From: an uncultured Bacteroidia bacterium
GTDB lineage: Bacteria > Bacteroidota > Bacteroidia > Bacteroidales > UBA932
Assembly (NCBI GenBank): GCA_902797035.1
Contig: CADBRH010000052.1
Location: forward strand, 1-53,200
Length of the DNA stretch: 53,200 bases
Direction: 5' to 3'
Of the stretch, positions 2,439 to 27,419 are shown piece by piece. The position numbers and the translations under genes are program-made. The notes under the pieces were generated by a model, which searched no databases, was not told where the DNA came from, and saw only the letters and a program-made list of their open reading frames with translations. Position 1 is the stretch's first letter; every line of letters starts with the position of its first letter.

Positions 2439-2458
2439 AAGAATCTGACATTACTACT
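2439..2458 (-). promoter_or_regulatory. Candidate AraC-type operator upstream of rhaB
   Basis: On the minus strand this reads AGTAGTAATGTCAGATTCTT and ends 2 bp upstream of the -33 position. Seventeen of 20 bases match a site at 20344-20363 in front of the first susC of the PUL, at nearly the same distance from its -7 box (25 versus 24 bp). The core GTCAGATTC is repeated at plus 2416-2424, between the -33 and -7 boxes. A regulator site is inferred from the shared sequence and position; no binding is known. Confidence 0.5.
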
Positions 2459-2474
2459 TGGAATATTGACTACA

Positions 2475-4628: not shown

Positions 4629-4639
4629 CAAAACGTGAG

Positions 4640-6478
4640 CTATCTCGCTGAATAGACATAGTTGAACCTTCCGAGAGGGGCGGTATCCCCGCTGACGTAG
4701 AAGTCCATAATGTCTCCCTCTTTCCGCATGTTATCGTTCCATTTGAACTCGATGTCAGCGGCTGTCCCGTCGGCGAGACCGAGGGCTTTCCGGGGTATCT
4801 TAATAACAAGACGCGTGCCTTCCTGGAAATAATCCACGCTGGCGACGGGTTCCCATATCCATTTATCCTGGACGCTCCTCTCGAGAGTGGCCTTGGTTTT
4901 CGACGGGGAGACCCTGTTCACCACGAAATCATAACCATACCAACCGGTGCCCTTGTCACGGTCCACATCTATGAAGAGGCGCATCCAGGCGGGATCGGAG
5001 CATGGGGTCATTTTCTGGTCAGTCTCCACATAGAAGTAGAGATAATCTGAATCCCTCGCCACCTTGGCCCCTACCAGGTCATTTCGGCCGGAGTCATCCT
5101 TGTAATACATGTTCCCCGCCCCGACATTGTCCCGGTGGAAAGTGTTGCCTCTATATGCGGCGAAGCACGGAGTCACATTGTCCCAGTCGGAGAAACGTTT
5201 GATATTGATGGTTTTAGGTGCGGAGACTCCTTCGGCGGGAGTCATTCCCTTGAACTTGCGGACATTGTCCACAAGCTGGAGATAGTACACGTCGCCCTTG
5301 TCTCCCCATCCGGCGTTGGGCTCAATGTCGCGGCTGCACACCCAGTTATACTGGTCCACGAAAGAGAAGGGATCACCGTTCCAACCGTCACTGGGCAGCC
5401 ATTTGCCGGCGATGTACTCGTTCCAGCCGGTCACGAACACCAACTCAGGGTCGAGCTCGTAGGCCCTGTCCCACTGCTCCTCGATGTTCCATCCGTAGAG
5501 GTAGCCGTCGGGACGGGGGTCGAAACCGTTACGGATGGACCAGTTACGGCCGTAGGCGTCCTTGGTGTTGAAAGCGCCGCAATGGCCCTTCCTGTCGGGA
5601 TTGGTGTTCTGCGCGACCCCGACCGTTACTTGCTCGTACCGGGTATTGCCGTCAGAGTCACTGGAGGTGACGTAGCCGTGCTGCGGATAGTTCTCCAGCC
5701 AACCCCACTGGTCGTTTCGCTCAGGATCCGGCCCGTCCACGTAGTCAGGCTGACCGGGGCGGAAGGTGAAGAACCCCGCTATCTCGCGGTCCTCCTCAGA
5801 GTCTGTCAGCAAGTCCGGATAGGCCATCAAGCAGGGTTTACCCCTCCACATGAACCAAAGGTCTTTATAACGGCCTGGCTTGAAGACATCACGGTAGAGC
5901 TGGCGTAGAGACTGGTTTGTCGCCGGCACGGGCCAGAGGTTCAGGATAAAGGAAACCTTCGGCACTTTCACGCCGTCCTTCCGGGCCTGGTCCCATGTCT
6001 CCATAAGGGCCTCATAAGACTCCTTAAAGGTGAGGGAACCGTTCGTGCAGTCGAAGAACACGGCGTCCACACCGGCGGCGGCCAGCATCTCGGCGTGTTT
6101 GCGCAGCACCCACTTGTCGGTGGTCTGGTAATATCCGAATAGTGGCTGCTCCCAATAGTAGAAGTGAGGGCCCTTTGGACCCCACGCCGGGTGATTATAG
6201 TCCTTGATGGCCTCGGGATTCTTCCTGAGGATCTCGGACACATTGTACACCGGATACTTGTCGTTGTGGTTGCTGTTGTGCCATGTCCAGTAGAAGATAC
6301 CCACGAACTTGCCGTCCCTCTTGGCGGGCGCGTTGTCATAGCTCCTTACCTCTCGTCCGAGAGCGTCCGTGGCCGCCCATGAGTCAGGGTTCACCTCCTG
6401 CGCCCGGGCTGTCCAGGAAACACCCGCGGACAGGGCCAGGGCGAGAAGTATCCCGGCACGATATAATAATGTTCTCAT
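4640..6478 (-). CDS. GH71/99-like protein with C-terminal CBM9-like domain (periplasmic paralog)
   Basis: A 612-residue secreted protein with a cleavable signal peptide (ending near TARA-QE) and no lipobox cysteine, so it is predicted to be soluble in the periplasm. The N-terminal part, about residues 35-420, shows the GH71/99-like pattern: DALGRE, VGIFYWTWH, a GVDAVFFDCTN strand and a WNEYIAGKW motif. The C-terminal part, from about 440, has the features of a CBM9/DOMON-like domain (DWDNV, FHRDN, DDSGRNDLV, GYDFVV). It is a clear paralog of the upstream gene at 6491, sharing the domain order and most of these motifs. It is 11 bp from the DUF5722 gene and 12 bp from its paralog, so one transcript is likely. 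A glycosidase role is inferred from family and context; the substrate is unknown, possibly a rhamnose-containing oligosaccharide. Confidence 0.8.
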   Translation of the reverse strand: MRTLLYRAGILLALALSAGVSWTARAQEVNPDSWAATDALGREVRSYDNAPAKRDGKFVGIFYWTWHNSNHNDKYPVYNVSEILRKNPEAIKDYNHPAWGPKGPHFYYWEQPLFGYYQTTDKWVLRKHAEMLAAAGVDAVFFDCTNGSLTFKESYEALMETWDQARKDGVKVPKVSFILNLWPVPATNQSLRQLYRDVFKPGRYKDLWFMWRGKPCLMAYPDLLTDSEEDREIAGFFTFRPGQPDYVDGPDPERNDQWGWLENYPQHGYVTSSDSDGNTRYEQVTVGVAQNTNPDRKGHCGAFNTKDAYGRNWSIRNGFDPRPDGYLYGWNIEEQWDRAYELDPELVFVTGWNEYIAGKWLPSDGWNGDPFSFVDQYNWVCSRDIEPNAGWGDKGDVYYLQLVDNVRKFKGMTPAEGVSAPKTINIKRFSDWDNVTPCFAAYRGNTFHRDNVGAGNMYYKDDSGRNDLVGAKVARDSDYLYFYVETDQKMTPCSDPAWMRLFIDVDRDKGTGWYGYDFVVNRVSPSKTKATLERSVQDKWIWEPVASVDYFQEGTRLVIKIPRKALGLADGTAADIEFKWNDNMRKEGDIMDFYVSGDTAPLGRFNYVYSAR

Positions 6479-6490: not shown

Positions 6491-8422
6491 TTATTTCTTC
6501 CAGATGAAACGGTAGTTGAAACGTCTGTTCGGAGCGGTGTCTCCGCTAACGCAGATAGAGATCGGATCGACCAGCTCGCCGGAGTTGTCGGTCCACTTGA
6601 AATCGAAGGAGGCCTTCTTCCCGCTGACACCGAGAATGTCGGGGGCGAGCGAGAGTTCCAGCTTATTGCCCTCGATAGCCACGGCCGCGAGAGCGTCAGG
6701 GACCCACTCCCCTTCCTTCCAGCGGAGAACGGTCGAGACGCCATCATTGAAGGTGGAATTGTCCACTATGATGTCGTAGCCGTACCAGCCGGTGGCGGAG
6801 TTCTGGTCCGCGTCGATCAGAAGCCGCATCCAATAGGGATCAGAGCTCGGAGTGAGCTCCTCCGCGGTCTCCACATAGAAGCAGACCGACTTGCCGTTCA
6901 TGGCTACCTTGGAGGCCACAATGTCGTTGCGGCCGGAGTCATCCGTGTAATGGATGCCCGCGTAACCCTTGGAGTCGCGGTGGAAGGTGTCGCCCCTGGT
7001 GTCGCGGTAAGTGACCTTCACCTTGTCCCAGTCACCGAACGAGCCGTCGATAGATATCTTCGTGACACCCTTGTTCTCGGGGATGGGACGGACTCCCTTG
7101 TAACGGCGGATATTCTGCGCCATCTGCATGTAGTAGTTGTCCGTGTAACCTCCCTTCATGGGCTGGATGGTGCGATTGAACTCGGCGTTGTACTGGTCAA
7201 CAAATATGAAAGGGTTATCCCTCCCTAGCCACTTCGCGGTGGGATTCTGATTATATTTACCTGCGGTCCACTCGTTCCAGTCATTCAGGTAGAGGAACTG
7301 GGGATCCGCGGCCAAGGCGTCCTCCCAGCGCTCCTGGAAGTATATTCCATAACCTTCGGGATTCTCGACGGTCTTCCCGAGCCAAGGGACATAGGCGGGG
7401 GCGGGCATGTCATGCTCATCAAGTTCCGGCTCACCGGTCTGTCGGGACCATGACTTCCCTACTCCCATCGGGAGGCTGGTCATGGTCACCGGATGCTGAG
7501 CGGGAGTGACGGCGCACTCCTCAACCTTGCCCTCGTGCTTGGAGGCGAGCTCCTCGGGAGTCATGTTGATTATCTTGTCGTCGGCCATGCTGTAGCCGAA
7601 GCTCCAGTTGTCCTCGGTGCCGATGTAGCGCTCGCCACCCCACTCGTAATAGCCCCACCACATGTTCCTCAGTGTGAAGAACTCTTTCACCTCATCGGAG
7701 TAATCATCTGTCTTGTAACCGCTTCCATTGGCGTCAAGATCAGGGCGGGCGTTATAGAGAAGAAGGGGCTTGCCGTCCCAGTAGAACCAGAGGTCGGAAT
7801 ATTTGTTCTCCTTGTAGATGCGGTCATAGATGTCCTGCACCACAGTCACGACGGGGCCGTTGTAGCACCAGAACAGGAACTGGGGAGTCTTGTTACCCTC
7901 GGCGCGCATCTTCTCCATGACGGAGAAAGTCACGTCCCACTCGTCCCAGTAGCGGACCGCGTTGGTCACATCCATGACCAGCACGTCCACTCCGGCGTCG
8001 GAGAGCATGGACATGTCCTTGCGGATCACCCACTCGTCCTGGCTGAGGAAATAACCCATCTCCGGCTCTCCCCAATGGTAGGAGCCGTACTTCCACTCGG
8101 GGTTGTCGGCCTGGTAACGCGCCTCGGGAGCCTTTGCGAGGACCTTCGTGACATCGGCCTCGTAGGGGCTCCTGACGTTGAGGAGGTTCTGGGTGTGCCA
8201 TGTGATGTAGAATATTCCCACGACCCTGCGCTGACCGTCATTCTTCACCGGACCGACAGAGTCGATTTGGGGCATCGTCCTGCCCAGAGCGTCAGTGGCG
8301 ACCCAGGTGTCTGAATATAAGTCCACCACGCCCGCCCCCTGAGGATCGGGATTCTGGCCCACGCACGAGAACACCGTACAAAGCGCCATCAAAACGATAG
8401 GAATAGAGAATCTCGTTTTCAT
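6491..8422 (-). CDS. GH71/99-like lipoprotein with C-terminal CBM9-like domain
   Basis: A 643-residue lipoprotein paralogous to the downstream 612-residue protein. The signal peptide ends in a lipobox (VFSC, Cys20), so it is membrane-anchored, unlike its partner. The catalytic-like region holds ATDALGRTM, VGIFYITWHT, an AGVDVLVMDVTN strand and LNDWNEWTAGKY. The Glu of WNEW is a candidate acid residue by analogy with GH99-like families. The C-terminal CBM9-like domain (about residues 465-640) contains FGDWDKV, TFHRDSKG, DDSGRNDIV and GYDIIV. It is the first gene after the intrinsic terminator at 8441-8479, so its expression probably depends on read-through or on an unseen internal promoter. 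Substrate not known. Confidence 0.8.
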   Translation of the reverse strand: MKTRFSIPIVLMALCTVFSCVGQNPDPQGAGVVDLYSDTWVATDALGRTMPQIDSVGPVKNDGQRRVVGIFYITWHTQNLLNVRSPYEADVTKVLAKAPEARYQADNPEWKYGSYHWGEPEMGYFLSQDEWVIRKDMSMLSDAGVDVLVMDVTNAVRYWDEWDVTFSVMEKMRAEGNKTPQFLFWCYNGPVVTVVQDIYDRIYKENKYSDLWFYWDGKPLLLYNARPDLDANGSGYKTDDYSDEVKEFFTLRNMWWGYYEWGGERYIGTEDNWSFGYSMADDKIINMTPEELASKHEGKVEECAVTPAQHPVTMTSLPMGVGKSWSRQTGEPELDEHDMPAPAYVPWLGKTVENPEGYGIYFQERWEDALAADPQFLYLNDWNEWTAGKYNQNPTAKWLGRDNPFIFVDQYNAEFNRTIQPMKGGYTDNYYMQMAQNIRRYKGVRPIPENKGVTKISIDGSFGDWDKVKVTYRDTRGDTFHRDSKGYAGIHYTDDSGRNDIVASKVAMNGKSVCFYVETAEELTPSSDPYWMRLLIDADQNSATGWYGYDIIVDNSTFNDGVSTVLRWKEGEWVPDALAAVAIEGNKLELSLAPDILGVSGKKASFDFKWTDNSGELVDPISICVSGDTAPNRRFNYRFIWKK

Positions 8423-8479: not shown

Positions 8480-8506
8480 ATCAAATCCGTTGTTCACGGG
8501 CGTCCA

Positions 8507-10126
8507 TTACTGGGGAACCGCTTGCCAACGCATGTTGCGGACGACCAGCGTGACTCCGGCGCCGTCGCCGATGTCGAAGCGGACAGTACATCCCTTCTTA
8601 CCGGACCAGCCGTGAGTCTTCCAGTCATTAGTGAAGTCCTTCTTGAAGGTCTTCCACTCGCTGGTCTTGCTGAGGTTGAACGTGGTCTCACGTCCTCCGG
8701 CGGGGCCGCCGTCACCGAAGCCATTCTCGTTGCACCAGAAGAACTCGCACATGATGTTGGCGGTACACTTGTACTGGAACACGAGCATAGCGCCAGCGGC
8801 ATCGTTCGGAAGACGGCACAGAGGCATCCATGAGTCACCACCGGTTGTCTCGAATGTCCACTCTGTCTCGTTCGAACGGTCATCAGCCTGGTAATAATTG
8901 AGGTTGTTGACCCAGCCGGCCTGACCGAAGTTGTCAGGATAGAGGTAATCGACATCAGGATAGACCGTAGGATCGTCATCCGGATCAGGAGCGAGCTCGG
9001 CCGCGGCCTCGTCGGCGTACGGTGAGGCGCTCTTGGCGTCGGCGCTGTAATAGGCGAGGAACTCGGCGACGTGGGCCCAGCTGCCCTCTGAGGTCACCTC
9101 GACCTTGATGTAACGGCAGACCTGCTCGTCGAAGGTCCAGAGGTGGGTGGCATAGAGGTAACTGGCGTCATACTCTTCGTCGTGGACAACGGTCCAGTTC
9201 TCGTCGTCAATGCTGACGGAGACCTTCACCCACTTCAGCGGGGAGCCGTAACCGGCATCGGTCTTACGGCGGATCACCTCGACGGCGTTGACCTTATGGG
9301 CATAGCCGAGGTCGACTATGAACCAGTGGTAAGGACCGGTGAGGTTAGTGTGCCAGTAGGTGTCCATGTTACGGTCAAGAACGTTCTTGAGCTCATAACC
9401 AGTCTGCCAGAAATCAGAGTACTCGTTGATAGCCATCCTCCCGACAGGGATCTCACCTGTCTTCGGGGTGACACTGACGACGGTCGGCTCGGAAGTCTGG
9501 CCGGCGTCATTGGCGGAGGTGACGGTGATCTGCGTGGGATCCGTGAACGCGCCGATCGAGATATGCCCGTCAGCGGCGGACTGCACGGACTTGGTGACGG
9601 TCGCGCCGGTCAGGTCCTTATAGGAGACGTTGACGGTGACCTCGCGATGGTACTCGTTGACCCAGGACACGATGGCGCCCTCGACCTCTGGCTCGACAGT
9701 GACGGTCTCAGCCACATATTTGTAGGCGTAGGAGGCGTCCTCGGCGGCTCCGGTCACAGTCTGGGAGGGACCGGCCTGGCCGTCAGCCGAGTAAGGCGTG
9801 AGGGTGAAGGTGTAAGTGTTGGTGTCATTGAAACCCTCGTAGATGTAGCGGGTATGCCCCTCTCCCTTGGTCGGGCTGACAGCGTAACGGCTGATCTTGT
9901 GCTTGACAGTCTCGCCGCCGCGCTGGAACTCGACCATGGTGTAATAATAGTCTCCGGAAGTGGGATTGTCCCAGGTGAAGACCACGGAGCCGATACGGGC
10001 GGAAGTCTCGACATTCGAGAGCGCTCCGGGGGCGGTCAACGACCCTGTCCTGGTGCCATTCTCAAGCTCGTCGCAAGCCCAAAGAAGCGAAGCCGCCGCT
10101 AAAAGTATGAGTATGTATTTTTTCAT
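8507..10126 (-). CDS. Surface glycan-binding lipoprotein (DUF4959/DUF5126/DUF5000-like)
   Basis: A lipoprotein of 539 residues counting from the ATG at 10126, which begins MKKYILILL; two in-frame ATGs lie just upstream. The lipobox is LLWAC followed by DELEN, an acidic run that suggests surface export. The apparent order is a fibronectin-III-like domain (about 20-125), a second beta-sandwich (about 125-225), and an F5/8 type C-like module (about 235-380; DRNMDTYWHTN, WFIVDLGYA, CRYIKVEV). A C-terminal beta-rich domain (about 410-539) resembles the N-terminal domain of the DUF5722 protein. The position directly after susD is that of an SGBP. It is predicted to bind the target glycan on the cell surface next to the SusCD transporter. 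The DUF names are family assignments made by eye. Confidence 0.8.
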   Translation of the reverse strand: MKKYILILLAAASLLWACDELENGTRTGSLTAPGALSNVETSARIGSVVFTWDNPTSGDYYYTMVEFQRGGETVKHKISRYAVSPTKGEGHTRYIYEGFNDTNTYTFTLTPYSADGQAGPSQTVTGAAEDASYAYKYVAETVTVEPEVEGAIVSWVNEYHREVTVNVSYKDLTGATVTKSVQSAADGHISIGAFTDPTQITVTSANDAGQTSEPTVVSVTPKTGEIPVGRMAINEYSDFWQTGYELKNVLDRNMDTYWHTNLTGPYHWFIVDLGYAHKVNAVEVIRRKTDAGYGSPLKWVKVSVSIDDENWTVVHDEEYDASYLYATHLWTFDEQVCRYIKVEVTSEGSWAHVAEFLAYYSADAKSASPYADEAAAELAPDPDDDPTVYPDVDYLYPDNFGQAGWVNNLNYYQADDRSNETEWTFETTGGDSWMPLCRLPNDAAGAMLVFQYKCTANIMCEFFWCNENGFGDGGPAGGRETTFNLSKTSEWKTFKKDFTNDWKTHGWSGKKGCTVRFDIGDGAGVTLVVRNMRWQAVPQ

Positions 10127-10153
10127 AATCATGATCATTTAAAGGATTGCGGA

Positions 10154-11875
10154 CTACCAGCCCGGGTTCTGCCAATTGTTACCGGTGAGCTTGCTCATCT
10201 TGTTAAGCTCAGTGGTGTTGATCGGATAGAGCAAGTACTTGGTCTCGGCGGTCTGGCGGGCGTCGAAGGCGAAACGCTGGTATTCGAAGGCGCTGCCGTT
10301 CTGCGTGATACGCATTCCGGTCACCTGCTTGGCGTACTCACCGAGGACATTCCAGCGACGGAGGCTGAAGTAGCGGTCCTGCTCGAGAGCGAACTCGACG
10401 CGGCGCTCGTTGCGGTAGCGGGCCTCGAACTCATCGGCGGACAGGCCTGAAGGCAGGTCAGGCATACCGGCGCGGGCGCGGATGGCGTTCAGGGCATCGG
10501 CTGCCGACATGTTGACACCGGCGACATTCTGGTAAGGACCGGCGACCTTGGCGGCCACCTCGGCGAAGTTCATGTACACGTCGGTGAGGCGGATCATACG
10601 CAGGTAACCGTCCTGATTGGTGTTACGGTTGGATGCGTCGGACCCGAGCTTGCGCATGTAATAACCGGTCGAGGTGTAGCGGATATTGGTCGAGCTGATA
10701 CCGCAGGTACCACCAACATAAGTGTTGATGTAGGTCCCGCCACGCTTGGACATGTTGTAGAATATCGAGGCGTAGAAACGAGGGTCACGACCTTCGTACG
10801 GCTTGGTCTCGTCGTATCCGGAAGCGGCGTTGATGATGGGCTTCAGGTGAGCGGCGTCGGAATAGCCGGTGATGGCGGGCTGTCCGTTGGCCATCTCGTA
10901 GGCGTCCACAAGCTCCTGCGTCGGGCAAGAGCCGGCGGTTGTCGTTCCCGCGAGCACAGGGACACCGCAGTTTGCCCACACGGCCACCTGGGTTCCGCCG
11001 TAGATCGTCTCCTTGTCAACAGCGCGAAGGTCGTTCGGGTTGGTCAGGAAATAAAGGGCATAGGCGGAATAGGTGTCGGATGACTTATCCCAGAGGGAAT
11101 AGCCGTTGGCGAGGAGTTTCGACAGGGCGTCGGCCGCCACGTTGAGGGCCTGCTGCTTGTCGAACGTGCCGTTGTCGTGGAGAGGGCTGATGGCGTACAT
11201 GACCGCCTCGGCCCTGATGGCCTGGGCGACAGCCTTTGTCATCATGCCCCACTGCCCGTCGCGGTAGACATAGGAGAAGTCCTCGCAGTCACCGACGGCT
11301 ATAGCCTCGTCGCAGTCCTTGAGGATCTGGGTGACGACCTCAGACACAGTGGCGCGGGAGTCACCTGAGTAGTCGTGGGAAGTGCCATAGTCGGTAAGCG
11401 CGAGAGGGACACCACCGTAGCGCTTGACGAGCTGCATGTAATAGAAGGCGCGGAGGGTCTTCGCCTGGGCGGACCACGCGGCCCTCTCCTGCTCGGTCAT
11501 CTTGGCAGTGGCCTCGCCGATGTTGTCGAGGAAGACATTGCACTTGCGGATGCCCTGGAACAGCGTGGTCCAAGGGTCTCCGTCAAAGTTATAAGAAGCG
11601 AAATTGCTGGCGTTCAGCGCCTGGTTGTACCAATAGTCGTACTTAGTGCCGGAGGTGATCGCCTGGGCGTCCTGGGCGTCATCGGAGAATGAGCCAGCGC
11701 GCAGGTCGAGGCCACCGATGTAGTTATAGCAGGAGTTGATATAACCACGGGTCATGTTACGATCGGCGAACACCTGACCCATATCAGTGGTTCCGTTGTC
11801 CCTCAGGTCGAGCATATCGTTGCATGCGGGAAGCGCGAAAACGGCCAACAATAAAAGAACGATATATTTTTTCAT
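10154..11875 (-). CDS. RagB/SusD family nutrient-binding lipoprotein (second pair)
   Basis: A SusD-type outer-membrane lipoprotein that caps its SusC partner and captures oligosaccharide. The chosen start gives MKKYIVLLL and 573 residues; an in-frame ATG four codons upstream (11887) is also possible. The lipobox is ALPAC followed by NDMLDL. SusD hallmarks are the RAFYYMQLVKRYGGVPL helix near residue 150, the VDAYEMANGQ segment, RYRNERRVEFALEQDRYFSLRRW, and the C-terminal NNWQNPGW ending. It lies 18 bp downstream of its SusC (30 bp counted to the chosen start) and shortly before the SGBP gene. Confidence 0.93.
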   Translation of the reverse strand: MKKYIVLLLLAVFALPACNDMLDLRDNGTTDMGQVFADRNMTRGYINSCYNYIGGLDLRAGSFSDDAQDAQAITSGTKYDYWYNQALNASNFASYNFDGDPWTTLFQGIRKCNVFLDNIGEATAKMTEQERAAWSAQAKTLRAFYYMQLVKRYGGVPLALTDYGTSHDYSGDSRATVSEVVTQILKDCDEAIAVGDCEDFSYVYRDGQWGMMTKAVAQAIRAEAVMYAISPLHDNGTFDKQQALNVAADALSKLLANGYSLWDKSSDTYSAYALYFLTNPNDLRAVDKETIYGGTQVAVWANCGVPVLAGTTTAGSCPTQELVDAYEMANGQPAITGYSDAAHLKPIINAASGYDETKPYEGRDPRFYASIFYNMSKRGGTYINTYVGGTCGISSTNIRYTSTGYYMRKLGSDASNRNTNQDGYLRMIRLTDVYMNFAEVAAKVAGPYQNVAGVNMSAADALNAIRARAGMPDLPSGLSADEFEARYRNERRVEFALEQDRYFSLRRWNVLGEYAKQVTGMRITQNGSAFEYQRFAFDARQTAETKYLLYPINTTELNKMSKLTGNNWQNPGW

Positions 11876-11905
11876 TTCTTTCATCATTTAATTGATTAGA
11901 TCAGA

Positions 11906-14900
11906 CTAGAAGGAGACATTGAAACCGATACGATACATCCGGAACACCGGGAGAGCGGTGATGTTGTTGCCTTCCACCGGCATGTCGGCCGGAAGCTTGT
12001 CAAAGCAGAACAGGTTCTGCCCGCCGAGATAGATCCTCGCCACGCCGGCTCCGATGGAGTCGCAGAAACGCTTGGGAAGCCTGTAGGCGATCTCGGCGTT
12101 CTTCAGACGGATGAACGAGGAGTTCCTGTAGAAGTAGTCACTGGCCTGGGTGTTGGTCGTGGAAGCGGTGGAAAGAGCCGGGAAATCGATCGGCTCACCG
12201 TTCAACCACCTCTCAGCGGTCCAGGCGTTCCTCATGCTCTCAGTGTAGAAACCGTCACGGAGAGAATTGTAGCTGTAGAGATAGGAGTAGTTCCTGTAGT
12301 AGTCAGCCACACCCTGGAAGAGAGCGGAGACCTCGAAGGACTTCCATGAGAATCCAAGGTCGATGCCGAAGGAATAGCGAGGGAGCCAGCCCTTGGCGAG
12401 AGGAGCCTGGTCCTTCTCGTCGATGACACCGTCCTTGTTCAGATCCTGATACTTGATGTCTCCCAGACGAGGGGTACCGAAGGAGTACTTGGCGTGGCTG
12501 TCAATCTCGTCCTGGAAATTGAACAGGCCGTTGCCGTTGCTCCAGTCGACAAGGTAGCCCCAGGCCTGACCGTTGGGATAGCCCTCCTGACGGAGACGAT
12601 AGACATAGTCCTCGTCCCTTTCGGACTCACCCACGCTGATGACCTTGTTCTGGTTGTAAGAGAGGTGACCGTTGATATGGACAGCCCAATCCTCGTTGAA
12701 GCGCTTGTTGTAACCGACCTGGAGTTCCCAACCCTTGTTCTCGCTCTCACCGATGTTGAGGACGGGGAAGGAGCCCAGAGGAATACCCTGGTAGGCGGGA
12801 GTAAGGGCGGTTGACCTGACAAGACCATTGTTCAACCTCTCCTTGAAGATGTCGAAGCTGACGCTGAACTGGTTGCCCAGACCGAGGTCGATACCGACAT
12901 TGGCCTTGGCGATCTTCTCAGGCTCGAGGGCGGCGTTGCCGTAGACGGACTCGTTGGTGTAGTACCTGTGCCAAGGAATGTTACCGCCTTGCTGTGACCT
13001 GACCTGATCCTTGTAGGAGTAACGGTCGTAACCGGTCGCGTCGTTGCCGGTAATGGCGTAGGACGCGCGGATCTTGAAGAGGGACAGCCAGGAGGCGTTA
13101 TCCTTGATAAAGGGCTCGTTGGAGGCGATCCAGGCGGCGCTGACACCGGGGGTCCAGAGGAAACGGGTGGCTCTCGGGAAGTAATCCGAGGCGGAGTATC
13201 CTGTGACCAGGTGCAGGGCGTAGCGATGGTCGTAGTTATAGAGGACATCCACGCCGGTGTAGATACGACGGTAGTCGTAAGCGGCGGCGTAGTTGCCGGT
13301 CTGATCGATGAAGCTCTGGTACAGGCCGTAGGCGTTGGCGGAAACATGGTGCTTGTCAAAGTCACGGGTGTAACCGGCCTCTCCCTTGTAGGACATGTAG
13401 CCGTACAGGGCGGTTCCCTTGCCATAGCTGAGGGTACCGTTGATCGTGGTGCCGAGCTGGGTGAAGCTCAACTTGGACCAATCGTCGTCGCGGTAAACCC
13501 TCTTGTAGCTCTGGAGGGTGGACTGGTTGGCGGTGATGTAGGAGAGGTAACCGACACTGGCCTTGGCCCACAGACCGGGAGTGATCATGCTCAGGTCGAA
13601 CTGGAGACCTCCCTGGCCGTAGATGTTCGTGTTGGTGGTGTTGGAATATCCGCTCCTGTTCAGGAGTCCGTAAGGGCTCTCAACCATGTTGACGGTGGAG
13701 ATCACATCCCCGGCGGGCTGAAGGATGGTCTCGCCGTCGGAACCCAAGATCTCGGGAGTGACGGGGCCATAGACTGTCGGAGGCATGAAGGCCATATATT
13801 CATATATGGTGTTGTTGTAGGCCGTGTTCCCGTTGGGAGTGTGAGCCTTGACGACAGAACCCGCGAGATTCATGAAAAGACCGATCCAGCGGTTGACCAT
13901 GACGTCGATGTTGGAGCGGAAGTTCATGCGGACCTTCTCGTTGTCGGACTTGTACTTCTCCGAGTCACCGTTCCAGAAGGAACCCTGATGGATGAAGTTC
14001 ATGGTCGTGAAATACTGCACGCGCTCGCCGCCGCCTGTGGCGTCGAGGGAGACCCTCTGAAGGTTGGAGGCCTTCTTCATGAGCAGGTCAGCCCAGTTGG
14101 TGTTGGGATAGTAATCTGTGTTGGCTCCCTTCTTGAAGTTGTCGAGAGCCTGCTCTGAGAAGAAGACATTCTTGCCGCGGCCATCGTTGAACGCGGCCTG
14201 GTTGCGCATCGTGGCGTACTCGTAGGAGTCGAACTGATGCATCACGTCGACCGGCTGCTCGACAGTGTTGGAGATATTCACGCCGACCTTGAGCTTGCCG
14301 GGGGCTCCCCTCTTGGTGTTGATCACGAGGAGACCGTTGGCGCCGCGCAAACCGTAGATCGCCTGGGAGGCGCCGTCTTTCAGAACTGAGATCGACTCGA
14401 CCTCCTCGGGGGAGATACGGTAAAGAATGTCGTGGGAATAGTTGTCGTAGAGTATCCCGTCGATCACTATACCGGCGGACCCGTCACGGATCGAGTGGAT
14501 ACCGCGGACAAACATCGACAGCTCCTCGTAAGTGGGCTCGAAAGTGCTCTCGATCGTCGTGAAACCTGAGAGACGGCCCGAGAGAGTCTGCTGCAGACGG
14601 GTGTTGAGAGATTTGCCGAGTGTCGTCCCTGACACCGTCGACACGGCGTCGGAAAGATCCTCACGGTAAACCTTGGAATAACCCAGGTTGATAACCTCGG
14701 CGAGATCGTGACCGTCATCCTCGAGGACAACCTGCATATCAGGCGACGCTTTGATCGTCTGTTTCTTGAAACCGACGAGCGCGAAGGTAAGCTCATCGGA
14801 GCTACTCGCGGTGGCCGTGTACTGGCCGTTCTTGTCAGTGATGTACAAGGCTTTGCCATTAGTGGAGACGATCACGCCTGGAATGGGGTTCCCGTAAACA

Positions 14901-15001
14901 TCCTTAACGGTCCCCGACACAGTGAGATCATTCTGCGCGCTGGCGAAAGCACTGCCAAGAAGCATCAACGCGGCGGCTATGATTATATGCTTTTTCATCA
15001 T
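11906..15001 (-). CDS. SusC/RagA-type TonB-dependent transporter (second pair, divergent)
   Basis: A 1031-residue outer-membrane beta-barrel importer driven by TonB. It has a signal peptide (ASA-QND), a carboxypeptidase D-like domain (about 25-95; SGTVKDVYGNPIPGV), a plug domain (about 110-240; VRGIHSIRDG, IDGILYD, VESISVLKDGASQAIYGLRGANG), and a barrel ending in RIGFNVSF. The usual VVVVGYG segment before the plug is replaced by AEVINLGYSKVYRED, so this SusC is divergent there. It pairs with the SusD at 10154. It lies 32 bp after the first SusD gene and belongs to the same minus-strand operon. The substrate is inferred only from context. Confidence 0.93.
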   Translation of the reverse strand: MMKKHIIIAAALMLLGSAFASAQNDLTVSGTVKDVYGNPIPGVIVSTNGKALYITDKNGQYTATASSSDELTFALVGFKKQTIKASPDMQVVLEDDGHDLAEVINLGYSKVYREDLSDAVSTVSGTTLGKSLNTRLQQTLSGRLSGFTTIESTFEPTYEELSMFVRGIHSIRDGSAGIVIDGILYDNYSHDILYRISPEEVESISVLKDGASQAIYGLRGANGLLVINTKRGAPGKLKVGVNISNTVEQPVDVMHQFDSYEYATMRNQAAFNDGRGKNVFFSEQALDNFKKGANTDYYPNTNWADLLMKKASNLQRVSLDATGGGERVQYFTTMNFIHQGSFWNGDSEKYKSDNEKVRMNFRSNIDVMVNRWIGLFMNLAGSVVKAHTPNGNTAYNNTIYEYMAFMPPTVYGPVTPEILGSDGETILQPAGDVISTVNMVESPYGLLNRSGYSNTTNTNIYGQGGLQFDLSMITPGLWAKASVGYLSYITANQSTLQSYKRVYRDDDWSKLSFTQLGTTINGTLSYGKGTALYGYMSYKGEAGYTRDFDKHHVSANAYGLYQSFIDQTGNYAAAYDYRRIYTGVDVLYNYDHRYALHLVTGYSASDYFPRATRFLWTPGVSAAWIASNEPFIKDNASWLSLFKIRASYAITGNDATGYDRYSYKDQVRSQQGGNIPWHRYYTNESVYGNAALEPEKIAKANVGIDLGLGNQFSVSFDIFKERLNNGLVRSTALTPAYQGIPLGSFPVLNIGESENKGWELQVGYNKRFNEDWAVHINGHLSYNQNKVISVGESERDEDYVYRLRQEGYPNGQAWGYLVDWSNGNGLFNFQDEIDSHAKYSFGTPRLGDIKYQDLNKDGVIDEKDQAPLAKGWLPRYSFGIDLGFSWKSFEVSALFQGVADYYRNYSYLYSYNSLRDGFYTESMRNAWTAERWLNGEPIDFPALSTASTTNTQASDYFYRNSSFIRLKNAEIAYRLPKRFCDSIGAGVARIYLGGQNLFCFDKLPADMPVEGNNITALPVFRMYRIGFNVSF

Positions 15002-15033
15002 ATCTGATCAATTAATAAGGTTAGGGGGAACTA

Positions 15034-16971
15034 CTACCAACCGGGGTTCTGCCAATTCTCACCGGTGACGGCGAGCATGTTGTTGACTTCGGAAAGCGGA
15101 ATCGCGACCTTCAGGTACTTGTTGGTGTAGCACTGACGCTCCTTGATAAGGTGGCGGTCGTAGGTGTAACCGGTCACATTACCGGCCGCGTCGACGTGGC
15201 AGGTGATGTAAGCGGCGGTCACCCAGTGGTCAGTGGCCGAAAGGTCTCCGTCGGGCCTGCTCCAGCGGCGGACGTCGAAGTAGCGGTTGCCCTCGAGAGC
15301 GAACTCGACGCGGCGCTCGTTGCGGATCCTCTGGCGGAGGCTCTCACCTGTGACGCTGGCGGGAATCTCGGGCATGCCGACACGGGCGCGGACACGGTTG
15401 GTGGCCTGACGGGCCTCATCCTCGTGGCCAGCCTCGAGAGCGGCCTCGGCGAAGTTGAGGATAATCTCGGCCAGACGGTAGTCCTTGTGGTCAGCGCCGG
15501 AAAGGGTCAGCGAGAGGTGATCGGAGTTCGGGTGCGCGAACTTGCGCTCGAAGTAACCTGTACGGGTGGCGGTACGGCCGGTAAGGGCCCATCCCATCAA
15601 ACCTTCAGGCTCCTCGTGGATTTTTCCTCCCTGCTCCCAACGGGCCCAGGTGGCGATGGTACGCGCGCCACGCCATCCGGCGTCCTGTCCCTTGTTCTCG
15701 AAGGAGTTCGCCGCGGAGGCGCTACCCCAAGAGCAGAAACGCTTGGAGCCAGTGTAATAAATCGTGGCGTAGAAGCGAGGGTCGCGGTTGGCGTAAGGGT
15801 TGTTCGGATCGTAGAGGGTGTTGGCCGTGTTGTAGTTCGGATCCAGATGGTACTCGTCGTTGTACGGCTTGGAGAGGTCAAGGACAGGCTGTCCGTCGGT
15901 GGTCTCGTAAGCGTCGACAAGCTCCTGGGTCGGGCAGGTCCCGGTCTTGTAACCGCAGATGGCCCCGATACAGTCGACGTTGGCCACATCCCACGCCCCG
16001 TTGGTGAGCTGGAAGATGGTCTCCATGTCGGCGGGAGACTCGGTATAGACCTGGGAGTTGTTGAAGTACTCGTTGTAGATCTGGGCGTACTGGTTAGGGA
16101 GGCAGACAGTCTGCTCATCCTGCCAGGCCGCGTAGTTCAGCGAGTTGTAGAGCTTGAAGCCATGGGACTCGAGCTCGGAAAGAGCCTGCTTGTTGATAGT
16201 GTAAGCCTCGTTCCAGTAGTTGTTTCCCTCGTTATAGAGAGGGCTGGCGGCGAAGAGGCTCATGCGGGACTTGATGGCCCACGCGAGAGCCTTGCACATA
16301 CGGCGCTTCTCACCGGAGGAAGTGATTCTCCAAGGCAGCTCGGCGCAGGCGATGGCGGCGTCGCACTCCTTGATGATGAACTGGACGACCTCGTAGTAGC
16401 TGGCCCTTGTCACCTCAGAGAAGTCATCGGTGTAGGTGTAAGGAGCGTCGATGATCGGAAGGCCGCATCCGAACCACATGAGCAGCTCTGAATAATAGTA
16501 CGCGCGGAGGAGCCTCGCCTCAGCGATCCAGCGGTTGTACTCGGAAGAGCTTCCTACCACCGCGGGATCGGCGTTGGCGATGAACATCGCGCAATCGCGG
16601 ATGCTTTTGAAATATTTTGTCCAGTAATTGTTCTCGACAGTTCCCGTGACACTCCAGACAGGATGGCTGGAAGCGGAGGCGTTACCGTTGTAAAGCAGAG
16701 CGGAACCCGCCCAGTTCACGTCAAGGTCATCGCCGTCCCAAGAGTCGTCACACCAGTTGACCGGGCCTCTCGTCCAGAAGAAGTATTGCAGCGACTTCGT
16801 CGGGAGGTTGGAATAACAGGTGTTCATGTAAGCCATGGTCTTGTCATAGTCGCCCCACACTTCTTCAAGGGAAATCTTGCCGTCAGGAGCCTGGTCCAGG
16901 TACTTGCCGCAAGAGACAGCGCACAATGAGAGAGTGACGGCCGCGACTACAATGTATATCAATTTTTTCAT
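15034..16971 (-). CDS. RagB/SusD family nutrient-binding lipoprotein (first pair)
   Basis: A SusD-type lipoprotein of 645 residues from the ATG at 16971 (MKKLIYI). Upstream in-frame ATGs at 16977 and 16983 exist; the last begins one base after the SusC stop. The lipobox is CAVSC. Family signs are LLRAYYYSELLMWFGCGLPI near residue 150, CPTQELVDAYETTDGQP, RIRNERRVEFALEGNRYFDVRRW, and the NWQNPGW end shared with the other SusD of the locus. At about 645 residues it is longer than typical SusD proteins (500-580). The extra length lies in the region around residues 330-480. It probably forms a complex with the SusC encoded just upstream. Confidence 0.93.
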   Translation of the reverse strand: MKKLIYIVVAAVTLSLCAVSCGKYLDQAPDGKISLEEVWGDYDKTMAYMNTCYSNLPTKSLQYFFWTRGPVNWCDDSWDGDDLDVNWAGSALLYNGNASASSHPVWSVTGTVENNYWTKYFKSIRDCAMFIANADPAVVGSSSEYNRWIAEARLLRAYYYSELLMWFGCGLPIIDAPYTYTDDFSEVTRASYYEVVQFIIKECDAAIACAELPWRITSSGEKRRMCKALAWAIKSRMSLFAASPLYNEGNNYWNEAYTINKQALSELESHGFKLYNSLNYAAWQDEQTVCLPNQYAQIYNEYFNNSQVYTESPADMETIFQLTNGAWDVANVDCIGAICGYKTGTCPTQELVDAYETTDGQPVLDLSKPYNDEYHLDPNYNTANTLYDPNNPYANRDPRFYATIYYTGSKRFCSWGSASAANSFENKGQDAGWRGARTIATWARWEQGGKIHEEPEGLMGWALTGRTATRTGYFERKFAHPNSDHLSLTLSGADHKDYRLAEIILNFAEAALEAGHEDEARQATNRVRARVGMPEIPASVTGESLRQRIRNERRVEFALEGNRYFDVRRWSRPDGDLSATDHWVTAAYITCHVDAAGNVTGYTYDRHLIKERQCYTNKYLKVAIPLSEVNNMLAVTGENWQNPGW

Positions 16972-16984
16972 ATTCATCTCCATT

Positions 16985-19900
16985 TTAGAAGTTGATGTTG
17001 AAGCCGAGCATCACATTCTTGGTGATCGGGTAGCCGATCGGGTCATCCATCTCAGGATCGAGGTGGTTGGAGAATGTGTTGTTGCAAATATAGAAGAGGT
17101 TCTGGCCGGAAACGTAAACGCGCAGCCCCTTCACGCCGACATTGCCGAAGAGCTTGGCGGGCAGGTTGTAGCCCAGCTCGACGTTCTTCAAACGGAGCAA
17201 GCTCCTGCTCTGGATGAAGAAGTCATTGGAGCGGTGGCTGGTGGAAGCCTCGGTGGCGAGGGCGGGATAAGTGATCTTCTCGCCGGCCTTCCAGCGCTCC
17301 TCAGTCCAAGCGTGCTTGTGATAGTCGTAGAAGTTACCCTGGTAAATGAACTCCTTGACGTTCTGGGCGATTCCATTGTAGTTCCTGGAATAGCGCCCCA
17401 GACCGGAGAACAGGATGTTGAAGTCAAAATTCTTCAGATTGAGACCGAGGTTGATACCGTAGGTCAGACCAGGGATTGAGGTGGAGTATCCGATCGGGGA
17501 GACATCCTTGTCGTCGATGACACCGTCGCCGGTGACATCCTTGTACACGAAGTCACCGACCCTGGGGACACCGGAGCCGTACTTGGTGTGGGCGAGGAAC
17601 GAGTTGATCTCCTCCTGGGATGTGAAGTAACCCTTGCCGGGGGAATCCCAGTCGATGAGATAACCCCAGGCCTGGCCGATGCGGAAGCCCTCGGTGGTAT
17701 AGCGGTAGGCGTAGTCCTCACCCTTCTGGACCTCGTCGATCTCTATGACCTTGTTGTCGTTGAAGCCGAGGTTACCGCTGAGGTTGAAGGCGAAGCCGTT
17801 TTTGAAGTCATGGCTGTACTTGAGCTCGACCTCGAAACCGTGGTTCTCGACAACTCCCATGTTGACCTTAGGGATGTTGGAAAGAGGAAGACCCTGGAAT
17901 GAAGGGATAGTCTTGCGTTCGATAAGGATCTGGTCGCGGTTCTCGGTGAAGTAGTCGAAGTTGACCCTTAAGTCCTCGAAGAGACCGATCTCGATACCGA
18001 GGTTCATCTTCCTCGCGAGCTCCCACTTGAGCTCCTTGTTACCAAGCAGGCCCTCGGAGATCGTTCTGCCGCCGAGACCGGCGACGTCACGGTCAGTGTT
18101 GCCTCCGACGGAGATGTTGTCCTGATAAAGGAAGCGGTTGCCGCCCATGGAGTCGTTACCGACAAGCCCGTATGAGGCGCGCAGCTTCAACCATGTCAGG
18201 AAGTTGCTGTCTTTCAGGAAGGATTCGTTCGAGACGATCCAACCGAGGGAGGCCGACGGGAAGAAACCGAAGCGGTTGGCCGGGGCGAACTGCTCGGATC
18301 CGTTGTAACCCATGTTGACCTCGGCGAGGTAGCGGTCGTCGTAGCCGTAGGTGATACGGGCGGCGGTACCGATAAGGTTGTAAGGTATGGCGGCGCCTGA
18401 GGTCTCCCAGTAACGGCGGTAGCCGGTCACCATGGCGCCCACGTCGTGCTTTCCGAACTTGCGGGCGTAGTTGAGGGAGGCCTGGCCGTAAATCACGTAG
18501 TTGGAGTTACGGGAATGGGCGAGAGTCAGAGGCGAGGGGTTCTGCGAGTGGAGACCGTAGCTCATCGTGTCGTTCGCGTAATCCACGTACGGGAGATAGA
18601 GCTGGAGTAGGCGGTTCCCCTGCAGCACACCGATGTTGTAAGTATCGTATGAGACCGAGCCGTTGATCGAGAGCCCCTTTGTGATGAGGGAGCTCAAGTC
18701 GTAGTTCACCGCCAAATTGGAGTTAAGGTTCTTCTTGGTGTCCGTCTGGAATCCCTTGAAGTTGATACACTCGTATGCGGTACGGTCGATCCAGTTGTAC
18801 ATGACAGGCTCTCCCACTGGGATACCGTCCTTCTCGGCAAACTCGGCGATGGTGACAGGCCCGACGAAAATCGGGGCGATACATGTGGCCTGATAAATAA
18901 GGTCACGCATCATCCAGTTCTCGTCGCCTCCGTAAAGGCTGGAGGTAGGCATGTTGATGTCCTCGGAATAGGAGGCGAGGTTCAGCGAGACCGTCAAGTC
19001 CCTGGTGAGATGGAAGTCAAGGTTGGAACGGAGACTGAAGCGGTTCATGTAAGCCTGCGGATTGTAACCCAGCTGCTCCTTGGGGAGGGTCTTGAGGTTA
19101 CCGTCCTGGTGGATGTAACCGAGGCTGAGGAAGTAGTTCACCATGTCAGTACCGCCAGTGATGTTAGCGTTGAAACGGGACTGGGGGGTAAACTGCTTGA
19201 ATGACATCCTGTAGTAGTCGTTGTCGCAATAAAGATACTCGCGCATTGTCTTGAGCTCCTGGTAGTTCGGCTCGTTCCCAGAGAGTCCGAAGAGAGGGTT
19301 CTTGAACTTGGCGATGACCTCGTCGCTGTAAGGGACAGCCTTGCCGTCGTTGCGGAAAGCCTCATTGCGCATCTCGAGAAACTCCCAAGAGTGGAGCCGG
19401 TCTGGCTGCACGGTGAAACTCGACATCGACTGGTCGAAGGTGATATTCAGGTTCGGCTTGCCCTTCTGGCCGCGGCGTGTCTGGATAAGGATCACACCGT
19501 TGGCGCCGCGCACACCGTAAAGTCCGGTGGCGGAGGCGTCCTTCAGGACAGAGATGCTCTCGACCTCATTCATGTCAAGCGCGCGGATACCGTCGGAACG
19601 CTCCACACCATCGACGAGAATCAGAGGGCTCTTGCCGTTGGTGGTGGCGGCTCCACGAAGGAACATGGTGGCGCCGTCACGTCCGGGCTGGCCACCGCTG
19701 CTCTGCATGGAGGTGAGACCTGTGACACGTCCGGCGAGAGCGTTGTCAAGACGGGTCGTGGTGGTCTTTCGCAGATCTGTCGTGGAGACAGTCGCGATGG
19801 CGCCGGTCACCGTGGCTTTCTTCTGCTGGCCGAAAGCGACAACGACCGTCTCCTCAAGCATCTCGGTGTCCGGAACCAGCTTGACCGAGAAGTTGTTTCT

Positions 19901-20212
19901 GGTGCCGACCTCGATCCTCTGCGTCGTGTAACCGATGCAGGAGACAACGAGGGTGGCGTTGGCAGGGACGTTCGTCAAAACGAAGGTACCGGCGTCGGTA
20001 GTCATCGTGCCGTTCACCGTACCATCGACCATGACGGTCACCCCAGGCATTGGAAGGTTGTTCTCATCGACTACCGTACCGGTAATCTCCCTCCCCCGCT
20101 GGGCGCTGGACGGTGTCCAGAGACCCGCGCAAAGCAGGAGGCAAACAACCGCGACAGCCGCCCTCGCACACGGGAGCAGAGTCGCAGAAAGGTTTTTACC
20201 GTGTATTTTCAT
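16985..20212 (-). CDS. SusC/RagA-type TonB-dependent transporter (first pair, first gene of PUL)
   Basis: A 1075-residue TonB-dependent outer-membrane transporter. The N-terminal signal peptide ends near SSA-QRG. A carboxypeptidase D-like domain follows (ITGTVVDENNLPMPGV), then a canonical TonB-box-like LEETVVVAFGQQKKATVTGAI. The plug is at about 140-260 (LVDGVERSDG, VESISVLKDASATGLYGVRGANG), and the barrel ends in LGFNINF. It is the promoter-proximal gene of the PUL: 93 bp of leader separate its ATG from a candidate -7 box. The next gene starts 1-13 bp after its stop. It is predicted to import oligosaccharides captured by the adjacent SusD. Confidence 0.95.
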   Translation of the reverse strand: MKIHGKNLSATLLPCARAAVAVVCLLLCAGLWTPSSAQRGREITGTVVDENNLPMPGVTVMVDGTVNGTMTTDAGTFVLTNVPANATLVVSCIGYTTQRIEVGTRNNFSVKLVPDTEMLEETVVVAFGQQKKATVTGAIATVSTTDLRKTTTTRLDNALAGRVTGLTSMQSSGGQPGRDGATMFLRGAATTNGKSPLILVDGVERSDGIRALDMNEVESISVLKDASATGLYGVRGANGVILIQTRRGQKGKPNLNITFDQSMSSFTVQPDRLHSWEFLEMRNEAFRNDGKAVPYSDEVIAKFKNPLFGLSGNEPNYQELKTMREYLYCDNDYYRMSFKQFTPQSRFNANITGGTDMVNYFLSLGYIHQDGNLKTLPKEQLGYNPQAYMNRFSLRSNLDFHLTRDLTVSLNLASYSEDINMPTSSLYGGDENWMMRDLIYQATCIAPIFVGPVTIAEFAEKDGIPVGEPVMYNWIDRTAYECINFKGFQTDTKKNLNSNLAVNYDLSSLITKGLSINGSVSYDTYNIGVLQGNRLLQLYLPYVDYANDTMSYGLHSQNPSPLTLAHSRNSNYVIYGQASLNYARKFGKHDVGAMVTGYRRYWETSGAAIPYNLIGTAARITYGYDDRYLAEVNMGYNGSEQFAPANRFGFFPSASLGWIVSNESFLKDSNFLTWLKLRASYGLVGNDSMGGNRFLYQDNISVGGNTDRDVAGLGGRTISEGLLGNKELKWELARKMNLGIEIGLFEDLRVNFDYFTENRDQILIERKTIPSFQGLPLSNIPKVNMGVVENHGFEVELKYSHDFKNGFAFNLSGNLGFNDNKVIEIDEVQKGEDYAYRYTTEGFRIGQAWGYLIDWDSPGKGYFTSQEEINSFLAHTKYGSGVPRVGDFVYKDVTGDGVIDDKDVSPIGYSTSIPGLTYGINLGLNLKNFDFNILFSGLGRYSRNYNGIAQNVKEFIYQGNFYDYHKHAWTEERWKAGEKITYPALATEASTSHRSNDFFIQSRSLLRLKNVELGYNLPAKLFGNVGVKGLRVYVSGQNLFYICNNTFSNHLDPEMDDPIGYPITKNVMLGFNINF

Positions 20213-20311
20213 ACAGTGATAGATTAAAAAAACAAATAGTCGTGTTAATGTGGTTCAGTTTTTTCAGGCTTGTGTTATCATATGTTCGGTTAGTATGGAC
20301 AAAACCTTTTA

Positions 20312-20319
20312 CAAAAATA
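20312..20319 (-). promoter_or_regulatory. Candidate -7 box of the PUL promoter
   Basis: The minus strand reads TATTTTTG, a full match to TAnnTTTG. No good -33 TTTG is found at 19-21 bp. Instead the conserved 20-bp motif at 20344-20363 begins where a -33 box would end, consistent with activation by a bound regulator. The leader to the susC ATG is 90-100 nt. Confidence 0.5.
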
Positions 20320-20343
20320 GATTTTTATACTATATGAAGACTA

Positions 20344-20363
20344 AAGAATCTGATATTCCGACT
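20344..20363. promoter_or_regulatory. Candidate operator between the PUL and its AraC regulator
   Basis: The minus strand reads AGTCGGAATATCAGATTCTT and matches 17 of 20 bases with the site upstream of rhaB at 2439-2458. It lies 24 bp upstream of the susC -7 box and 26 bp upstream of the plus-strand -7-like TATATTCG of the araC-type gene. It could therefore serve both divergent promoters. The whole intergenic region is 20213-20424 (212 bp), AT-rich, with no other gene seen in it. Confidence 0.5.
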
Positions 20364-20389
20364 CGAGTTTTTGATTACGTTTTTTTTAA

Positions 20390-20397
20390 TATATTCG
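20390..20397 (+). promoter_or_regulatory. Candidate -7 box of the AraC-type regulator gene
   Basis: TATATTCG is one mismatch from TAnnTTTG and lies 27 bp before the ATG at 20425. A TTTG at 20370-20373 is only 16 bp upstream, shorter than the usual 19-21 bp, so the -33 assignment is weak. Confidence 0.35.
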
Positions 20398-20424
20398 CGT
20401 TGGATTGAGTAATTATATAGTATC

Positions 20425-21321
20425 ATGGAGGATGTACATCTGAAATATTTGGCGGTTAACCTTTCAGACCTCCAATGGGGAGCGGCGGTCAATTCCGTGG
20501 GGCAGCAGCGGATCGCCCCCGGCATGAGCTATCCTCCGAGGAACCATCCCTCCAGATACATATTCAACGTGGAGAGCGGACGTGTATTACATGAGTATCA
20601 ACTGATTTACATCACCGAGGGCCGCGGGAAATTCAGCAGCGAGACTCTCGGGAGGAACCGGGCGATACCCGTCTCGAGCGGGATGATGTTCCTCTTGTTC
20701 CCGGGTGAGTGGCACTCATACCACCCTGATCCTCAGACCGGTTGGAAAGAGTATTGGATCGGATTCAACGGCGAGTTCGTCAACAACTTGGCGGATAACA
20801 AGTTCCTCTCCAAGGAAAGACCATTTTTCAGGGTTAATATCCGGGAGGACATAGTGTCCCTGTACAACGAGGCGATCTCCGTCGCCGTCACCCAGGAGTC
20901 CGGCTTCCAGCAGCTTTTGGCCGGCATCGTGGCCCGTCTCCTGAGCCTGGCGTTTTTCTATGACAGGAACTACCAGTACCAGAAGTCCGACACCGCGAAC
21001 AAGATCGGGCAGGCCAAGGTGATGATAAACGAGAGCTACCAGGACATAACTCCGGAGGAGATAGCTGCCAAACTATGCCTCAGCTACTCGACTTTCCGCA
21101 AGACTTTCAAGGAATACACCGGCTTCTCCCCGGCCCGCTACATCAACGAGGTCAGGATGAGCAAGGCCAAGGAACTGCTCACCAACACGTCTTTGAGCAT
21201 AAAAGAAGTGGCCTATCATGTCGGGTATAACAACCACGACTACTTCTTCACGGCGTTCCGCAACATGACAGGCCGCACTCCGGCCGATTACAGGTCAATG
21301 ACACAAGGGGCAGGGATCTAG
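20425..21321 (+). CDS. AraC family transcriptional regulator (candidate PUL/rhamnose regulator)
   Basis: A 298-residue AraC/XylS-type regulator. The N-terminal half (about 20-165) looks like a cupin-type effector-binding domain, with HEYQLIYITEGRGKF and FPGEWHSYHPDP as sheet-and-His motifs. The C-terminal 100 residues hold two helix-turn-helix units: ITPEEIAAKLCLSYSTFRKTF and LSIKEVAYHVGYNNHDYFFTAF, followed by the GRTPADYR signature. It is divergent from the PUL and shares a 212-bp intergenic region that contains the 20-bp motif also found before rhaB. It has no sensor kinase or periplasmic part, so unlike hybrid two-component PUL regulators it should sense a cytoplasmic sugar. L-rhamnose or L-rhamnulose is the natural guess, by analogy with RhaR/RhaS. 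Its stop codon abuts that of the convergent next gene. Confidence 0.88.
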   Translation: MEDVHLKYLAVNLSDLQWGAAVNSVGQQRIAPGMSYPPRNHPSRYIFNVESGRVLHEYQLIYITEGRGKFSSETLGRNRAIPVSSGMMFLLFPGEWHSYHPDPQTGWKEYWIGFNGEFVNNLADNKFLSKERPFFRVNIREDIVSLYNEAISVAVTQESGFQQLLAGIVARLLSLAFFYDRNYQYQKSDTANKIGQAKVMINESYQDITPEEIAAKLCLSYSTFRKTFKEYTGFSPARYINEVRMSKAKELLTNTSLSIKEVAYHVGYNNHDYFFTAFRNMTGRTPADYRSMTQGAGI

Positions 21322-27398: not shown

Positions 27399-27419
27399 TC
27401 TCAAACAACGAACAAGAAT

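Follow-up and report, generated by a model that had tools for sequence, protein, structure and literature searches.

A predicted RhaR operator common to a SusC/SusD glycan locus and the rhaB promoter in an uncultured Bacteroidales bacterium

A glycan locus stands between the rhamnulokinase gene rhaB and a gene for an AraC-family regulator in the genome of an uncultured Bacteroidia bacterium (UBA932; assembly GCA_902797035.1), and this order raises the question of whether one regulator controls both glycan import and rhamnose breakdown. The stretch analysed, hereafter the window, comprises 53,200 nt of contig CADBRH010000052.1; the genome is a 2.27-Mb draft and 84% complete. On the minus strand at one end of the window, rhaB (962..2377), whose product carries FGGY domains, is followed by the L-rhamnose isomerase gene rhaI (1..948), which is cut by the contig end. 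The best NCBIfam match of the rhaB product is TIGR02627, at 456.6 bits, with the curated cut-off of 528 not reached. The rhaI product has 89% identity (tblastn) to a protein of the related locus L145, which is presumed to be RhaI from gene order and known RhaA/RhaI sequences.

The glycan locus, a PUL with two SusC/SusD pairs (Pfam, NCBIfam), consists of the eight minus-strand genes between rhaB and the regulator gene (2475-20212). Its first gene encodes SusC-like 2 (SusC2, 16985..20212; TIGR04056) and is followed by genes for SusD-like 2 (15034..16983; Pfam), SusC-like 1 (11906..15001; TIGR04056), SusD-like 1 (10154..11887; Pfam), a candidate surface glycan-binding protein with DUF4959 and F5/8 type C domains (8507..10138; Pfam), the paralogues u643 (6491..8422) and u612 (4640..6478), which share 34% identity over their alignment and have no Pfam family, and a DUF5722 protein (2475..4631; PF18989). 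The regulator gene, on the plus strand (20425..21321), encodes 298 amino acids with HTH_18 (1e-25) and AraC_binding (1.1e-17) domains (Pfam), the latter being a cupin-like sensing domain. Further along the plus strand, another SusC/SusD pair (24120-29141) comes directly after a GSCFA gene and ahead of an SRP54 (Ffh) gene at 29163; a similar SusC occupies the same place in L034 and L047.

A preliminary description of this DNA had reported a 20-bp element at 20344-20363 and again at 2439-2458 of the plus strand. Both copies read as claimed, being identical at 17 of 20 bases and lying between minus-strand genes, next to the starts of susC (20212) and rhaB (2377), and the AraC-type gene said to be divergent from the first copy is that at 20425-21321 (plus strand, Pfam). 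A degenerate form of the 20-mer, with up to three mismatches allowed, matches these two sites only in the own genome, with no control matches. The 20-bp box proved to be part of the true site, the real unit being a 34-bp direct repeat in which TTCTGAY is followed by TTTTGAY with a 21-bp period. This motif was trained on 24 upstream regions, 22 of which fit it well (L054 and L055 do not), and T.TGA.AT is invariant across nine operators. In predicted operator copy 1, on the PUL/rhaR side (20344..20377, plus strand), the half-site proximal to the PUL promoter is TCTGAT (20349..20354), and the distal one, 21 bp from it, is TTTTGAT (20369..20375). The corresponding half-sites of copy 2, at the rhaB promoter (2439..2472, plus strand), are TCTGAC (2444..2449) and TATTGAC (2464..2470). 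Conservation in relatives had been proposed as a check on the element, and the motif is indeed kept, copy 1 in L034, L084, L160 and L161 and copy 2 in L144, L145 and L148. A third occurrence of GAATCTGAC at 2416-2424, near the rhaB -7 box, was considered as a half-site and set aside as chance, being absent in L145 and L148 and loose in L144.

A matrix of 25 sites, both window sites among them, was used to scan the window and loci L034-L149, part of the tested set having served for its training; on reversed sequences (3.0 million positions) its maximum was 12.4. Copy 2 scores 41.3 and copy 1 scores 31.2, and the third best score in the window is 8.6. Matches of 13.3-15.0, above the null maximum and without rha context, occur in L057 (within SusC2), L079, L087 and L110, and an Alistipes locus (L150) has a site of 15.6 about 400 bp before rhaB. 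The scan of the own genome that had also been suggested, performed with a composite operator pattern at no more than one mismatch, matches only the two window sites, with no control matches; with this tolerance 67 of 300 genus genomes match and controls match elsewhere too, and the own-genome result alone was used. Exact matches to the composite pattern in G017:C56 and G293:C10 (L255, L256) have no rha context. A half-operator pattern with one mismatch, which produced control matches in many genomes, was excluded from the counts.

To identify the regulator, its relatives were compared. A scan of public genomes with the AraC protein found 98 relatives, the best 80 of which were kept; many are from rumen or other ruminant samples, and one is named Candidatus Cryptobacteroides. 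Orthologues of the gene adjoin rhaB or rhaI in relatives. Of the 25 loci with at least 70% identity, 19 show the regulator immediately next to rhaB and divergent from it, and a scoring operator intervenes in 18 of these 19 (L054 is without one); in the other six it faces the PUL (L034, L084), rhaI (L053) or another gene (L055), or the locus is cut by a contig end (L035, L088). The order rhaI-rhaB | rhaR - 5'-nucleotidase - GSCFA was found in L036-L048, L050, L051 and L089 (L045 ends before GSCFA), and in these the operator separates rhaB from rhaR. The window regulator has the same downstream neighbours, 5'-nucleotidase and GSCFA, and lies 18 kb from rhaB, the PUL splitting the block. The divergent rhaB, the operator and the shared neighbours in relatives together identify the product of 20425-21321, on genomic context, as RhaR, the rhamnose regulator of this group. 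The site described as shared is thus common to both promoters; it is not newly shared, being the group's rhaB|rhaR operator.

The operator was also compared with the presence of the regulator. A rha upstream region could be read in 56 of the best 80 loci, and sites were counted at a threshold of 12.5. A site within 400 bp of the rha gene is present in 41 of the 49 loci in which the regulator has at least 50% identity, 16 of the 41 having sites outside the matrix; the proportion is 19/20 at 69% identity or above, 22/29 at 50-69%, and 2/7 below 50%. Of the eight loci without a scoring site there, L073 and L076 have one elsewhere in the locus, and L054, L059, L061, L062, L064 and L087 are without explanation. 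The site stays with rhaB though rhaR is elsewhere in L068, L071, L082 and L083, none of which is in the matrix. A regulator-free set was formed by 47 same-genus genomes without a match at E 1e-40; 22 of them have rhaB, 21 with a readable upstream region, and one of these 21 reaches the threshold (12.7). The earlier proposal of a single regulator for both units is supported by this contrast of 41/49 with 1/21, by which the site goes with the regulator gene. Many of the regulator-free genomes are incomplete, and some may have the regulator after all, an error that would tell against the contrast. One genome, G264 (98% complete; L249, G264:C13:141000-160900), has rhaB-rhaI-rhaT-GH78-SusC2, with no regulator found genome-wide at E 1e-40 and no operator before rhaB; this is a single case, chosen for its glycan locus.

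More distant homologues of the regulator have related repeats. One of 42% identity, in Phocaeicola plebeius (L152), is transcribed divergently from rhaB; between the two genes, TGAC and TTTTTGAT keep the register of the operator and form a weaker 21-bp-period repeat (13/18 positions) that is below the matrix threshold. Near-perfect TTATGAYAT direct repeats, likewise with a 21-bp period, are found in L101, L102 and L104 (43-44% identity), where they end about 124 bp before the regulator start; no rhaB or rhaI was found at these three loci.

The window, L247 and L248 show the full order rhaB-operator-[8 genes]-operator, with exactly two sites of at least 12 in each stretch examined. L247 comes from the genome of L034 and holds the whole arrangement on one 78.8 kb contig, and in L248 (G338) the contig ends just before rhaR. 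Partial arrangements occur in two more genomes, one represented by L084/L148 on two contigs and the other by L160 (G207). Because the arrangement recurs in other genomes, chimeric assembly in one genome is an unlikely explanation, as judged from these contigs. Some genomes were reached twice (L035/L145, G171; L161/L248, G338; L056 and G204, the latter with L163 and L254; L057, apparently G163, with L164), and genomes, not loci, were counted where duplication matters; the counts are not independent, because the genomes are related and some loci duplicate one genome. On the RhaR tree, the window and L034 are supported at 99/98, L035 joins at 89/40, and the placement of L084 has no support. A single origin of the bracketed arrangement appears likely from these comparisons. 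In G207, a partial regulator gene (80% identity, at a contig end) lies beside SusC2 at L160 (G207:C303) and a second one (73%) on L264 (G207:C314), which indicates either two copies or contamination (4%).

The distance between operator and promoter bears on function. TAnnTTTG boxes had been described 24 and 25 bp from the two copies, and both are present on the minus strand: TATTTTTG (20312..20319), of the PUL (susC) promoter, at 24 bp, and TAAATTTG (2406..2413), of the rhaB promoter, at 25 bp. This spacing was followed in 57 hand-picked scan matches beside rha, SusC, GH78 or GH106 genes, a set from which duplicate loci, Alistipes L150, the deep homologues L100-L105 and weaker matches lacking such genes were excluded. 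A -7-like box on the catabolic side lies at 24 bp (16 sites) or 25 bp (38 sites) in 54 of the 57, the exceptions being L119, L053 and L073, with three boxes at other distances, and 30 of the 54 boxes are strict TAnnTTTG. Among held-out sites, 7 of 8 have a box at 24/25 bp (chance below 1% per site). The SusC promoters of five genomes all have a box at this distance, with a shuffling chance below 1% each; the box is strict in only two of the five and weak in three (TTAATTTG, CAAATTTG, GAAATTTG). On the rhaR side, to which a slightly different box rule was applied, the distance differs among species, being 15-21 bp in 27 of 37 cases and 30 in one, with no box in nine; the -7-like box of the window rhaR promoter is TATATTCG (20390..20397, plus strand). 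An activator touching RNA polymerase needs a fixed distance, and the fixed operator-to-box distance makes the glycan promoter look RhaR-activated.

These comparisons make it quite probable that the RhaR operator is shared and that RhaR activates the glycan locus as well as rhaB-rhaI in response to L-rhamnose or a near derivative. The inducer is best guessed to be L-rhamnose or L-rhamnulose, from gene context and known RhaR proteins. Most likely, a RhaR dimer would bind both half-sites on the same DNA face, in keeping with their 21-bp period; the promoter-proximal half-site would end beside -33, and the sugar-bound dimer would be a class II activator. The ancestor would have had rhaB and rhaR divergent around a single operator. 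In the lineage of the window the eight-gene SusC/SusD locus would have come to separate the two genes, flanked on either side by an operator copy, one driving the glycan locus and the other rhaB-rhaI, so that glycan import and rhamnose catabolism would switch on together.

Copy 1 also faces rhaR, and its distal half-site appears to overlap the likely -33 region of the rhaR promoter, so RhaR probably controls its own gene, as far as can be read from promoter sequence. One alternative goes further and holds that the operator at 20344 serves rhaR only, the PUL being controlled by other means, for instance by a Crp-like global regulator or an HTCS encoded elsewhere. A site of this type lies within the rhaR promoter in all four genomes of the arrangement with sequence reaching rhaR, which makes an effect on the PUL and autoregulation inseparable by comparison alone, and in the arabinan PUL of B. 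thetaiotaomicron an HTCS and a global regulator are described beside AraR (PMC5061871). What argues for an effect on the PUL within this comparison is only the 24/25-bp spacing, kept exactly on the SusC side in five of five genomes while the rhaR side varies. Moreover, no other regulator, HTCS or SusR-like gene was found with Pfam/NCBIfam among the twelve genes of 962-24006, and in another genome (G204, L254) the same eight PUL genes stand in the same order behind rhaB-rhaI-rhaT. Control of rhaR alone is therefore considered unlikely.

A second alternative is that the two sites are leftover homology from a duplication of the rhaB-rhaR intergenic region, one copy being without present function. 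Both copies do resemble the rhaB|rhaR intergenic region of relatives; however, pairwise identity is 78% (rhaB class) and 79% (SusC class) in the operator against 33-58% in the flanks, and the distal half-site of copy 2 is retained at rhaB without a neighbouring rhaR promoter, which leaves this explanation improbable. Taken alone as a coincidence statistic, the 17/20 match is weak: a pair of at least 17/20 arises in 15 of 100 dinucleotide shuffles of the 11 intergenic stretches of the window (one of these, 906-961, is mostly rhaI coding sequence, because rhaI starts at 948), and in 1 of 500 shuffles of the two site-bearing stretches alone. Compared across relatives, the shared site appears solid, and chance likeness of two AT-rich promoters, for which the 15/100 shuffles would speak, is hardly credible against a site kept in dozens of relatives at fixed spacing, together with the regulator, and nearly always missing without it.

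The gene context of the glycan locus in relatives points to rhamnose as well. Of 300 genus genomes, 8 have SusC2 relatives at E 1e-250, a count that includes the genome of the window. Besides G204, SusC2 stands behind rhaT in L049 and L057 (RhaT by Pfam); in G264, a GH78 alpha-L-rhamnosidase gene is found between rhaT and SusC2. It had been suggested that further operators might precede rhamnosidase genes, and in two other genomes same-spacing operators do precede GH78 alpha-L-rhamnosidases, the operator being 25 bp from a relaxed box in both L076 and L079. The sites neighbouring GH106 genes in L119 and L251 are without the usual -7 spacing. In L251 (G025:C64), a 60% RhaR homologue is divergent from GH106 alpha-L-rhamnosidase genes, with sites of 16.8 and 23.8; this locus was rejected as support, the -7 spacing being missing at both. 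A GH78 gene in L087 and a GH3 gene in L064 lie upstream of the regulator, with no scoring operator there. No site of at least 7 was found in the related u612/DUF5722 loci L250, L252 and L253, the regulator having been looked for in one of the three genomes.

The PUL of the window itself has no recognised rhamnosidase and no Pfam glycosidase. For the u612 model (pLDDT 81.7), a fold search returned GH99/GH71 hydrolases (E 1.2e-5) with modest TM-scores of 0.25-0.55, so that the modelled protein resembles these families at the level of the barrel only. The DUF5722 model is of low confidence (pLDDT 59.6) and its fold matches are no more than a hint; the protein perhaps combines a carbohydrate-binding part with a hydrolase-like barrel. 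An invariant WNE motif is present in u612/u643, and homologues of u612 at E 1e-60 occur in 23 of 300 genus genomes, several of them adjoining DUF5722. A literature search on DUF5722 found no paper.

The predicted operator can be compared with known systems. The motifs predicted for the AraC-type RhaR of Bacteroides are described as direct repeats with 21-bp periodicity (PMC3870299), and the window operator is likened to them, by this described periodicity, as a 21-bp-period direct repeat before rha genes. In B. thetaiotaomicron, RhaR is an established rhamnose-inducible switch (PMC6692515) that drives the rhaK promoter, and transcripts of the operon are reported to rise when rhamnose is the growth substrate (PMC6692515, PMC11669328). 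This regulator, BT3768, and its rhaKIPAO operon likewise pair an AraC-family protein with rhamnulokinase and isomerase genes, a likeness of description. According to PMC3878776, its regulon comprises one target operon; in the window, by contrast, the SusC/SusD locus has its own operator copy. RhaR control of a SusC/SusD locus was not found described in a literature search covering titles and the beginnings of abstracts.

Regulators that join sugar and polysaccharide use are described elsewhere. AraR of B. thetaiotaomicron acts on a SusC/SusD operon as well as on the genes of arabinose catabolism (PMC3878776, PMC5061871), and resembles the present case, as described, in being a single monosaccharide-sensing regulator for both. 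It differs in being an NrtR-family repressor whose PUL also has an HTCS, whereas the window regulator is AraC-type, a presumed activator and the only local regulator found, and its predicted operator flanks the glycan locus on both sides. In the same bacterium, monomeric fructose is described as the signal for both fructose and fructan use (PMC5061871), likewise a monosaccharide signal for a sugar and a polysaccharide, although sugar and regulator differ. RhaS of Erwinia chrysanthemi is reported as an AraC-type rhamnose activator with a regulon that reaches the oligosaccharide uptake genes rhiTN (PMC3870299); it is non-orthologous, belongs to another phylum and has rhiTN instead of SusC/SusD.

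A wider reading, which has about an even chance of being right, is that RhaR has become the local switch of an outer-membrane system for a glycan containing rhamnose, on which undescribed enzymes, the GH99-like u612/u643 and the DUF5722 protein, would act. The genus would then have brought one and the same eight-gene module under RhaR on at least two occasions, once by an operator duplication bracketing the module and once by placing the module behind rhaB-rhaI-rhaT, and a third genome would have dropped regulator and operator together. The predicted operator, with its exact spacing rules, is open to testing and concerns a largely uncultured Bacteroidales lineage. Its second copy shows how a monosaccharide regulator may have taken over a polysaccharide locus, and the arrangement points to rhamnose within the glycan that the u612/u643 and DUF5722 families would handle.
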